The position numbers and the translations under genes were made by a program. A stretch of DNA of 55,013 nt, from the NCBI GenBank assembly GCA_012729835.1, contig JAAYCK010000097.1:1-55013 (forward strand). Direction: 5' to 3'. This DNA comes from Syntrophomonadaceae bacterium (GTDB lineage: Bacteria; Bacillota; Syntrophomonadia; Syntrophomonadales; Syntrophomonadaceae). Under the pieces are notes generated by a model. It saw only the letters and a program-made list of their open reading frames with translations. It searched no databases and was not told where the DNA came from. Positions 5,228 through 20,716 of the stretch are shown piece by piece (position 1 is the stretch's first letter; each line of letters begins with the position of its first letter).

Positions 5228-5285
5228 ATATGTTTCGTACCATTTGTACTAATTTACGGGTTGAAACATATCAAAATGGCCATTT
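5228..5285. repeat. Inverted repeats between aptamer and terminator of the fdhA leader
   Basis: ATATGTTTC (5228-5236) and GAAACATAT (5263-5271) form a perfect 9-bp inverted repeat. Beside it lies the 12-base palindrome AAATGGCCATTT (5274-5285). Both lie in the presumed leader RNA of fdhA, between the aptamer-like domain and the terminator. They may be linker helices or protein operators. Confidence 0.5.
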
Positions 5286-5289
5286 AACA

Positions 5290-5400
5290 GGTCATTACTC
5301 CTTTCCAAGCAAGGGAGGCAAACTCGTTTCCAAATTAACCCTAATCGGCCAGGCAACCATGGCAAAAGAAGCTTTAGGTAGCTGGGCTCGGAGTTTGAAT
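5290..5400 (-). ncRNA. Probable molybdenum/tungsten cofactor riboswitch (Moco/Tuco RNA motif) upstream of fdhA
   Basis: Read on the minus strand, this stretch has conserved-looking blocks I recall from the Moco RNA motif: ACTCCGAGCCC (5394-5384) at the 5' side, then GGTTGCCTGG, TTTGGAAAC, GCCTCCCTTG and GGAAAGGAGT (5306-5297) at the 3' side. The outer ACTCC and GGAGT pair as the closing helix. The position fits: it lies between a good promoter and an intrinsic terminator in the leader of a Mo/W enzyme gene. I recognise the motif from memory of its consensus and could not run a covariance model. Molybdenum versus tungsten type is not resolved. Confidence 0.7.
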
Positions 5401-5456
5401 ATTCAGTTTTTTGATTTATAGTGCTAAGTATTCACCCCACAAAAAAGCACACTACA

Positions 5457-13651: not shown

Positions 13652-13726
13652 TTTTTTTAGCCACAGATTAACAAGATGCACACAGATTTACTCAAAATAA
13701 TCTGAGCAAATCTGTGGCAAAAAAAA
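13652..13726. repeat. Long inverted repeat with CACAGAT words
   Basis: Seven T plus GCCACAGATT (13652-13669) face AATCTGTGGC plus eight A (13709-13726), an almost uninterrupted 18-bp stem. The inner part holds further CAGATTT/AAATCTG pairs. The T-run precedes the stem and the A-run follows it on both strands, so it is not a normal terminator. It resembles a small palindromic mobile repeat. Confidence 0.7.
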
Positions 13727-13780: not shown

Positions 13781-13795
13781 GCAAATGCTATGAAG

Positions 13796-14066
13796 AAGTA
13801 AAGTAGCTTCGATGGAGTTATGCAGAGAGGGAGTGCCACCGGCTGTAAGCATTCCTATAACAAAACGGGGTGAAGTTCACTTCGGAGCACCCGGCTGAAA
13901 CATGCTAGACATGCAAGTAGGTCGAGGCGGAACTCCCACCGTTAAAGGGGAGGGGATATCGGATAACCTGTATCTTTATTACAAGCGGCCAACAGGCAAA
14001 GTGGGTGGTACCGCGGGTAGCAAATAAGCTTCTCGTCCCATAGTGGATGAGAGGTTTTTATTTTTT
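13796..14066 (+). ncRNA. T-box leader, probable Phe (UUC) specificity, with terminator
   Basis: A tRNA-sensing leader upstream of aroF-pheA. Visible parts: AGAGAGG (from 13825); the distal helix GGAGTGC/GCATTCC with the conserved GGCTGTAAG in its loop; GTGAAG-TTC-ACTTCGGAG, where TTC (13876-13878) sits in the specifier position; GCAAGTAGG; the CCGTTA block; and the T-box sequence TGGGTGGTACCGCGG (14002-14016). The terminator stem CTTCTCGTCC/GGATGAGAGG is followed by a T-rich run (14029-14066). A UUC specifier suits DAHP synthase and prephenate dehydratase downstream. The specifier is placed by pattern, not by a computed fold. Confidence 0.88.
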
Positions 14067-14090
14067 ACAGGGATCCCGTATCTTGAATGA

Positions 14091-14172
14091 GCGGCCAGTA
14101 TTGGCAAAATGGGTGGTACCGCGGGAGTTTACAGACCTCTCGTCCCTCTGGGGATGAGAGGTCTGTTTTTTT
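14091..14172 (+). ncRNA. Second T-box antiterminator/terminator module without its own stem I
   Basis: Only 43 bases after the first terminator, a second TGGGTGGTACCGCGG (14110-14124) appears. A very strong terminator, ACAGACCTCTCGTCC/GGATGAGAGGTCTGT, then leads into seven T. Both copies are introduced by GCGGCCA and GGCAAA, so the segment looks duplicated. There is no room for stem I, so this module is either served by the upstream specifier or works as a second checkpoint. Confidence 0.85.
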
Positions 14173-14195: not shown

Positions 14196-15038
14196 GTGGC
14201 CAGATTGCAGATTAAAGAGGGCATGGATATGCTGGTTTCGCGCAGTACAAATAACGGGAATACTCAGGTCCGGGTTAGAGGATGTGTCATCGGCGGAGAA
14301 CAGCTGGCCATAGTGGCTGGCCCCTGTGCAGTGGAAAACGAAGAGATAATGAAGGAAACCGCCTTCAAAGTAAGAGGGAGCGGGGCCAATATACTCAGAG
14401 CCGGTGCATACAAACCCCGGACTTCACCATATAGCTTCCAAGGCTTGGGTGAGGCCGGTCTGAAAATCCTGGCCCGAATAGGCGAAGAGATGAACATGCC
14501 AGTGATCACAGAAGTTATGGATGCAGAAGATATAGCAGTAGTGACTGACTATGCAGACATCCTGCAGGTGGGGGCCCGCAACATGCACAATTTCTCGTTG
14601 CTGAAGAAGCTGGGTAAGATCAATAAGCCTATCGTGCTCAAACGTGGAATGTCAGCCACCATTGAGGAGTGGCTGCTGGCGGCAGAATACATTCTGGCCG
14701 GGGGCAACAGCCAGCTGATTCTTTGTGAACGGGGAATACGCTCAAGTGAGCCTTGGACTCGCAACACACTGGATCTGGCGGCAGTGGCTATGGTAAAGGA
14801 GATGTCTCATCTGCCGGTGTTAGTAGATCCCAGTCACGCTACCGGGGTTCGGAGTCTGGTGACACCTATGGCCCGGGCGGCTATTGCCGGCGGAGCTGAC
14901 GGCATCATGGTAGAGGTCCATCCTCATCCGGAAAAAGCCCTTTCCGATGGAGATCAATCATTGACCCCGCGTGGTTTCAGCCAGCTGATGAAGGAAATTG
15001 AGCCGGTAGCCCGGGCAGTGGGAAGGAGGGCCAGGTAA
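14196..15038 (+). CDS. aroF: 3-deoxy-7-phosphoheptulonate synthase (DAHP synthase, beta type)
   Basis: Condenses PEP and erythrose-4-phosphate, the first step of the shikimate pathway. The 280 residues contain AIVAGPCAVEN, RAGAYKPRTSPYSFQGLG, ITEVMDAED, LQVGARNMHNFSLL, KRGMSATIEEWL, and DPSHATGVRSLV, which is the type I-beta (KDOPS-like) pattern. I chose GTG 14196 because GGAGGAG lies seven bases before it. Reading further upstream would run the protein through the T-box terminator. No regulatory domain is fused; control is by the T-box leader. The stop is directly followed by the pheA ATG. Confidence 0.93.
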   Translation: MARLQIKEGMDMLVSRSTNNGNTQVRVRGCVIGGEQLAIVAGPCAVENEEIMKETAFKVRGSGANILRAGAYKPRTSPYSFQGLGEAGLKILARIGEEMNMPVITEVMDAEDIAVVTDYADILQVGARNMHNFSLLKKLGKINKPIVLKRGMSATIEEWLLAAEYILAGGNSQLILCERGIRSSEPWTRNTLDLAAVAMVKEMSHLPVLVDPSHATGVRSLVTPMARAAIAGGADGIMVEVHPHPEKALSDGDQSLTPRGFSQLMKEIEPVARAVGRRAR

Positions 15039-15869
15039 ATGGCTTATGCAGTTTTGGGCCCGCGCGGAACATTCAGTGAAGAGGCTGCCGGGGTTTATTG
15101 GGGCGCCGGCGTTGAGTTGGAAGTAGCAGGGACAATAAAGGAAGTGTTTCAAATGGTGGAGTGCGGTCGGGTGGAAGGAGCCCTGGTTCCTATAGAGAAT
15201 TCACTGGCCGGGACTATCCATCCGACCTTCGAAGGCTTGCAGAATAATAACGTACAGATCAGGGGTGAACTGTATATGCCGGTTCAGCAGCACCTGCTGG
15301 CCTGCACTAACTTAGCACTGGAAGAGGTGGAGTTGCTGATTTCTCAGCCGGTGGTATTGGTTCAGTGCGAAAACTTCATACAGACCAGCCTGTTTGGAGT
15401 GCGCACTGAAATCTGTGACAGTACTGCCCGGGCTGCCCAAATCCTGCGTTCCGAGAGCAAGCCGGCGGTTTCTATTGGCAACAGCTCTGCTGCTGAGCTT
15501 TATGACCTGCGGATAATCTATCCGGATATAGCAGAAGAAAATAATGTGACTCGTTTTATTCATATAGGCCGGCCAGAACTTAGACTTGAAGGCGATAAAA
15601 GCAGTATTATTTTTTCTTTACGCGACCGTCCCGGATCCCTATACGATACCCTGGGTATATTCGCCCGCCGACAGCTTAATCTGGGTAAGATCGAGTCACG
15701 ACCGAGCCGAAAGCACAGTGCGGAATTCTCTTTCTATATAGAGGTGGAACTGTCCAATCAGGCAGGAACAGCCGAATTATTGAACGAATTAAGCGAATAC
15801 TGTCAGGAAGTGAAATTCCTGGGTTCATATATGAAGCAAACGGGGGCGACAAGGCTTGATATTTCTTGA
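15039..15869 (+). CDS. pheA: Prephenate dehydratase
   Basis: Converts prephenate to phenylpyruvate in phenylalanine synthesis. It has 276 residues. The dehydratase domain starts MAYAVLGPRGTFSEEAA and contains VEGALVPIENSLAGTIHPT and NNVTRFIHIG. A C-terminal ACT domain follows, with RPGSLYDTLGIF and the phenylalanine-binding KIESRPSR (near 225). End-product inhibition by phenylalanine is therefore expected. It begins one base after the aroF stop and overlaps hemZ by 14 bases. A Phe T-box upstream fits this gene. Confidence 0.94.
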   Translation: MAYAVLGPRGTFSEEAAGVYWGAGVELEVAGTIKEVFQMVECGRVEGALVPIENSLAGTIHPTFEGLQNNNVQIRGELYMPVQQHLLACTNLALEEVELLISQPVVLVQCENFIQTSLFGVRTEICDSTARAAQILRSESKPAVSIGNSSAAELYDLRIIYPDIAEENNVTRFIHIGRPELRLEGDKSSIIFSLRDRPGSLYDTLGIFARRQLNLGKIESRPSRKHSAEFSFYIEVELSNQAGTAELLNELSEYCQEVKFLGSYMKQTGATRLDIS

Positions 15870-20510: not shown

Positions 20511-20716
20511 AAGGCTAAGGCTTCTTTTCATGAAAGAACCCCCTGCTGTGTGCGTGTTAGGTCGTTCAGTTTTTGCCAACACTCGGATTAAGGGAGCTTT
20601 GACTCTGGTATGAGGCATGTAGGCCCATTCACTGGGACACATTAATCATACAGGCGGGCACCCACCTGCTTAGCAGGTCTAAACCAGCGGCTACACGGCA
20701 ACAGTGGGGTTTTTTT
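20511..20716 (+). ncRNA. ssrS: Probable 6S RNA (RNA polymerase regulator)
   Basis: A roughly 200-base transcript between a sigma-A promoter and a T-run (20710-20716). The ends pair: CCCCCTGCTGTGTGCGTGT (from 20539) against ACACGGCAACAGTGGGG (ending 20709). The centre is open, with GGGCACCCACCTGCTTAGCAGGT on the 3' arm, a block I associate with Firmicute 6S RNA. A 6S gene beside aspS is also known in Bacillus subtilis. The precise ends are estimated; processing may start the mature RNA nearer 20535. No covariance search could be run. Confidence 0.7.

Follow-up and report, generated by a model that had tools for sequence, protein, structure and literature searches.

Introduction

T-boxes with duplicated terminator–antiterminator elements were reportedly described by Vitreschak et al. 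in 2008 (RNA 14:717). Such partially tandem T-boxes, with one stem I followed by two serial antiterminator/terminator units, are a known class whose mode of action was called unknown in a 2020 review (PMC7583486). According to that review, the aminoacylation sensor consists of the RRRxG–stem III–AA element together with the antiterminator, and it is necessary and sufficient for sensing. In a 2025 survey (PMC12452182), contiguous T-boxes are taken to be units that each possess full sensor and output domains; in the fully tandem T-boxes of thrS, trp and ilv operons, each unit has its own stem I and its own tRNA.

The DNA analyzed here, referred to as the window, is a stretch of 55,013 nucleotides from a Syntrophomonadaceae bacterium (assembly GCA_012729835.1, contig JAAYCK010000097.1). 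Judged from its sequence, the leader in front of the DAHP synthase gene is a partially tandem, transcription-controlling T-box for tRNA-Phe. It belongs to the same class as the described partially tandem T-boxes, but a predicted helix between its two linkers and the re-docking model built on it were not found in the literature searched. With fully tandem T-boxes it shares two serial terminators that would both need uncharged tRNA to be passed, whereas its second unit has no stem I. Canonical single T-boxes, including the aroF leaders L042, L046 and L054, have the same stem I, IIA/B, linker hairpin and discriminator, but they have a single discriminator, and their linker hairpin has just one 3' strand. 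Serial decisions or duplicated parts within one leader are also known from tandem riboswitches (TPP, SAM, glycine), in which it is the sensor that is duplicated; here a single sensor faces a duplicated output module. Since no mention of a helix between two linkers was found in the literature searched, a search that did not extend to the 2008 description of the class, the leader appears to combine a known class with an unreported structural feature.

Leader architecture and regulated operon

The leader matched Rfam family RF00230 over the full model length (1–219) with 102.2 bits, above the gathering score of 93, which assigns it to the T-boxes by covariance model. The elements of the first module, and the downstream genes of the aromatic amino acid operon, are as follows.

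13781–14043, + strand: tRNA-Phe T-box leader from stem I to antiterminator 1 (Rfam RF00230)
13876–13878, + strand: specifier codon UUC (Phe), which the Rfam alignment places in the specifier loop as GAAG-UUC-A
13928–13952, + strand: stem IIA/B pseudoknot including the F-box (read from the sequence; the Rfam alignment shows the F-box and the IIA pairs)
13953–13976, + strand: linker hairpin of module 1, with 5' strand GGGAUAUCGGAU and 3' strand CCUGUAUCUU (13967–13976); 95.6% of cells paired in 45 leaders
13983–13999, + strand: RRRxG (AAGCG)–stem III–AA of discriminator 1 (from the sequence; motif as defined in PMC7583486)
14002–14039, + strand: antiterminator 1, with T-box bulge UGGU at 14006–14009 (Rfam alignment)
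14026–14066, + strand: terminator 1, a 13-bp hairpin with U-run, −18.7 kcal/mol (computed fold)
14196–15038, + strand: regulated gene 1, DAHP synthase (aroF; NCBIfam NF006421, 3e-130)
15039–15869, + strand: prephenate dehydratase-like ORF, second in the operon (ORF list; named from its sequence)

The pseudoknot strands are CGG/CCG (13928–13930/13939–13941) and CUCCC/GGGAG (13933–13937/13948–13952). The host genome encodes tRNA-Phe(GAA), with A73 and a 3' end ACCA. The leader thus has both the specifier expected of a T-box (UUC) and a UGGN sequence matching the NCCA end (UGGU in both copies, ACCA in tRNA-Phe), with DAHP synthase downstream. By this enzyme, the nearest named relative is Syntrophomonas palmitatica (85% identity), and the genome belongs to the Syntrophomonas group. 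In both modules, CUCGUCCC is common to antiterminator and terminator, so that the two structures are mutually exclusive.

The second module

The window contains the exact 15-mer TGGGTGGTACCGCGG at two positions only, 14002 and 14110. A chance origin of the second core was ruled out, as shuffled sequences gave 0.10 matches with two mismatches or fewer. The second copy belongs to the following elements.

14073–14172, + strand: second, partial module with a complete discriminator and its own, stronger terminator
14089–14107, + strand: RRRxG (GAGCG)–stem III' (GCCA/UGGC)–AA of discriminator 2 (from the sequence; motif from PMC7583486)
14110–14146, + strand: antiterminator 2, with T-box bulge UGGU at 14114–14117 (partial RF00230 match; pattern search)
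14131–14172, + strand: terminator 2, a 16-bp stem with U-run, −30.5 kcal/mol (inverted repeat; fold energy)

The original prediction of two cores 108 bases apart, each with its own terminator (at about 14026–14066 and 14131–14172), and of a stem I with a UUC (Phe) specifier in the first module only, was borne out. The RF00230 alignment places stem I and specifier in module 1, and copy 2 matches only model positions 147–216 (14079–14147, 27.5 bits), from which it follows that module 2 has no stem I. Nor do the copies leave room between them for a further or degenerate stem I, and RF00230 gave no match to one. The U-run lies only 24 nt from the RRRxG motif of module 2, and the stem I per unit that defines a fully tandem T-box is missing. 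One stem I followed by two discriminator/terminator units is the partially tandem arrangement.

The second unit has a complete discriminator by sequence (14089–14125). The sensor motif reads AAGCG-GCC/GGC-AA in module 1 and GAGCG-GCCA/UGGC-AA in module 2, and UGGU, ACC and the G-U base of helix A2 are present in both. The GCGGCCA block, predicted to start both copies, is indeed found in each (13985–13991 and 14091–14097), but with a spacing of 106 and partly outside the start stated in the prediction; in both modules it covers the last bases of the RRRxG motif and the stem III 5' strand. The prediction missed that the second module also carries a strand that would pair with the upstream linker.

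Predicted long-range helix

The bases that separate terminator 1 from stem III' are complementary to the module 1 linker between the IIA/B pseudoknot and stem III. The two sides of the predicted helix are given below.

13953–13972, + strand: long-range helix, 5' side (MFE and centroid fold of 13940–14090; RNAalifold; pair counts)
14066–14084, + strand: long-range helix, 3' side, including CCCGUAUCUU, the second copy of the linker hairpin 3' strand

The linker hairpin of module 1, which in other leaders reads GGUAUCGGA...UCCCGUACC, has a counterpart at the same place in single-module aroF leaders, L046 for example. Module 2 repeats only the 3' strand of this hairpin (14075–14084), directly upstream of stem III', and the bases preceding it are complementary to the remainder of the module 1 linker. 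The unconstrained MFE and centroid structures of 13940–14090 both contain 17 long-range pairs between 13953–13972 and 14066–14084, in thermodynamic folds that ignore co-transcriptional kinetics and tRNA. The helix starts one base past the IIA/B 3' strand (13952) and encloses stem III and terminator 1.

Comparison, in tests designed after the complementarity had been noticed, shows that the capacity for this predicted helix is conserved. In 47 leaders reduced by similarity, the cognate duplex averaged −22.0 kcal/mol vs. −16.3 kcal/mol over all combinations, and it exceeded the sum of the two local folds in 41 of the 47. Cognate against permuted pairing gave z = −12 (0 of 20,000 permutations), with z = −0.3 for the reversed-sequence control. 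At least eight long-range pairs appeared in the MFE folds of 92% of 38 leaders, compared with 21% for shuffled and 44% for swapped segments. RNAalifold on 45 aligned leaders picked an eight-pair long-range helix with 0 of 360 cells broken, in which column pair 18:188 is A-U in 26, G-C in 17 and G-U in 2 leaders. For a fuller 11-pair helix, 95.9% of cells are paired, against 32–57% for partners slid by one to three columns. This helix has 39 double-change cells vs. 12.8 in shuffles, most of them in one column pair and few lineages. The cells do not count as independent events.

The linker hairpin of module 1, with 19 double-change cells in the same 45 leaders, scores like the long-range helix, indicating one 5' strand with two conserved alternative partners. 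At columns 20:40, the copy 1 strand leaves an A·C mismatch in seven leaders, while the copy 2 strand pairs in 45 of 45.

Since the repeated hairpin strand has inherited its complementarity to the old 5' strand, the raw pairing test overstates selection. With the repeated strand masked, z was −5.4, and −4.9 after correction for composition; the reversed controls in these short segments lay at −2.6 to −2.9, so the masked tests are moderate evidence. With controls imperfect in this way, they weaken the view that the long-range complementarity is purely a by-product of the repeated strand. Independent lineages with complementary changes include L139 (UAAUAGUC:GACUAUUA), L153, L155/L231 (CCAGUAUC:GUACUGG) and L172, and L150, L170, L171 and L235 rank poorly for cognate pairing. 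Leaders whose 5' strand has diverged rank 0, 0, 1, 4, 6, 15, 25, 26, 43 and 53 of 74; these mixed ranks mean that single lineages do not constitute proof. Little or no long-range pairing was seen in the MFE folds of L150, L170 and L234. In the Tyr leaders L156–L157, a related pairing, read by eye, lies elsewhere and adjoins stem III.

Proposed mechanism and alternatives

There is about an even chance, in our estimation, that one and the same tRNA-Phe, bound by stem I, undergoes two consecutive tests by means of a re-docking long-range helix. In the first step, bulge 1 would base-pair with the ACCA end of an uncharged tRNA-Phe on stem I, and RNA polymerase would run past terminator 1. The newly made segment 14066–14084 would then pair with 13953–13972, so that the module 1 linker hairpin is either replaced or extended, and the resulting helix, starting right after IIA/B, would close off module 1 as a side domain. 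With module 1 looped out in this way, stem III' and antiterminator 2 would start where stem III and antiterminator 1 had, and the conserved complementarity suggests that the long-range helix may indeed place the second module in the position of the first. The same tRNA, still held by stem I, would face a second charge test, now at discriminator 2; if it failed, terminator 2 would stop transcription. Two serial checks would give lower leakage and a steeper response. This steeper response, like helix formation during transcription and the hand-over of the tRNA end, is what we infer for the locus.

More tentatively, and somewhat short of even confidence, the shared docking strand could be seen as coupling one tRNA-bound stem I domain successively to two output modules, by strand exchange between the two competing copies of the linker strand. 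The result would be a double test of one tRNA in one transcript, similar to kinetic proofreading.

A second uncharged tRNA, either tRNA-Phe or any tRNA with A73, might instead bind discriminator 2 without stem I, in which case two uncharged tRNAs would be needed for full expression. A two-tRNA argument is applied to fully tandem T-boxes in PMC12452182, and module 2 is a complete discriminator of the kind held to be necessary and sufficient for aminoacylation sensing (PMC7583486). We consider this unlikely, since Phe specificity would be lost without stem I and the conserved pairing of module 2 with the IIA/B linker would have no role.

The helix could also be real and serve insulation, closing module 1 as its own domain against mispairing of the copies, or trapping the used module 1, with no ordered hand-over of the tRNA. 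It does enclose module 1, and the unconstrained fold of the whole leader favors mispairing of copy 1 with copy 2. Insulation leaves unexplained why the strand beside stem III is repeated exactly beside stem III', and why a complete reader of the tRNA end is kept in module 2; we regard it as distinctly unlikely.

Of the two terminators, the second has the more stable fold in 52 of 64 leaders (mean −23.5 vs. −18.7 kcal/mol), as would be expected if module 2 mainly cut leakage and antiterminator 2 were a remnant with little tRNA control. However, a strong terminator without control would shut the operon off, and UGGU, ACC, the A2 helix and RRRxG–AA are kept in module 2 over large distances, which makes such a backup role improbable.

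Age and spread of the tandem arrangement

Two cores 106–121 nt apart were found at all 10 closest DAHP synthase orthologues (L012–L021) and at least eight more distant ones. Genomes were also surveyed for two cores 80–110 nt apart, with the backwards pattern as a control. Of 54 family genomes, 34 carried the pattern, as did 40 of 63 in the order; a phylum sample of 398 contained it in 50 genomes, and the backwards control gave one match there. Identity between copy 1 and copy 2 in one genome was 0.745, while across species it was 0.81 for copy 1 and 0.78 for copy 2. Orthologous copies thus resemble each other more than the two copies of one genome do, and the duplication hence predates these species. 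A recent, neutral segmental duplication, as the original prediction had proposed and as the 23 nt common to the two copies at 96% identity might suggest, is refuted as the origin by these identities among related genomes and by the presence of the arrangement in 10 of 10 closest aroF orthologues and many other families.

UGGN is the same in both copies at 61 of 63 tandem places (53 U/U, 8 C/C), and one of the two exceptions is a chance match. The C/C leaders stand before serC and trp genes; tRNA-Ser and tRNA-Trp have G73. This agreement between copies, with C/C leaders before genes linked to G73 tRNAs, points to a second module that tracks the cognate tRNA end. The earlier suggestion that the second module could read the same tRNA end fits these data, UGGC pairs included, as well as the UGGU in both copies of the present leader against the ACCA of the host tRNA-Phe. 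The architecture, its age and spread, and the conservation of both discriminators are established by comparing related leaders.

The specifiers of tandem leaders are mostly UUC, with a few Tyr, Trp, Ser or Asn codons; the automatic UUC call tolerates one mismatch and over-calls slightly, L233 being a likely error. The genes tested 3' of these leaders encode DAHP synthase, sodium/solute symporters, ABC substrate-binding proteins, trpD and trpE, as well as phenylacetate-CoA ligase, a serC-type aminotransferase and asnA; hemZ was found in a single case. Among the 20 downstream proteins tested, none was an aminoacyl-tRNA synthetase.

Several related loci deserve mention. In a sister family, a tandem Phe T-box stands directly before hemZ (L241:1533–1681, − strand), and in the window hemZ lies two genes further down. 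The serine T-boxes L165–L169, before serC-type genes, have two cores and no linker hairpin; their module 2 seems to have no clear stem III, so they may be another kind of partial tandem. Syntrophomonas zehnderi has neighboring, divergently placed DAHP synthase genes on the same contig (L026 and L073), and the tandem T-box was seen only at L073. The single-module aroF T-boxes L061, L065, L066 and L069, from Dethiobacter-like genomes, apparently have two consecutive linker hairpins between the F-box and stem III.

Other RNA elements

Two further RNAs were found in the window, together with a repeat.

5282–5405, − strand: molybdenum cofactor riboswitch (RF01055, 77.5 bits)
20537–20714, + strand: 6S RNA, just downstream of aspS (RF00013, 80.9 bits)
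13652–13726: inverted repeat of 18 nt, flanked by A/T and containing CACAGATT repeats, 3' of a metallohydrolase ORF

The last may be a dispersed repeat, since similar CACAGAT stretches adjoin L007. The locus L007:1497–1800 (− strand; the same as G000:C135:6809–7112), like L213–L219, is a T-box leader with an apparent CUC (Leu) specifier that holds a complete tRNA-Ala(GGC) gene, CCA included, in the stem III loop, on the same strand and directly 5' of the antiterminator. In a congener (L213), this leader is followed by a leucyl-tRNA synthetase-like ORF. Most of the 54 genomes in the family align without a break through T-box, tRNA-Ala and antiterminator, and in other families of the order the match covers the tRNA-Ala–antiterminator part. 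No report of a tRNA-Ala gene inside a T-box stem III was found in the literature searched. Processing of this tRNA would cut the leader that contains it.

Significance

A helix that puts discriminator 2 in place of discriminator 1 would give a testable answer to how partially tandem T-boxes work. It suggests that two successive output modules can be served by a single RNA domain with its ligand bound. If this holds, the leader would show that an RNA can check one ligand repeatedly, and it would offer a plan for building synthetic switches that are tighter. With 50 of the 398 genomes sampled carrying it, the arrangement is common, and the genes examined belong to biosynthesis, transport and phenylacetate-CoA ligase rather than to tRNA synthetases.
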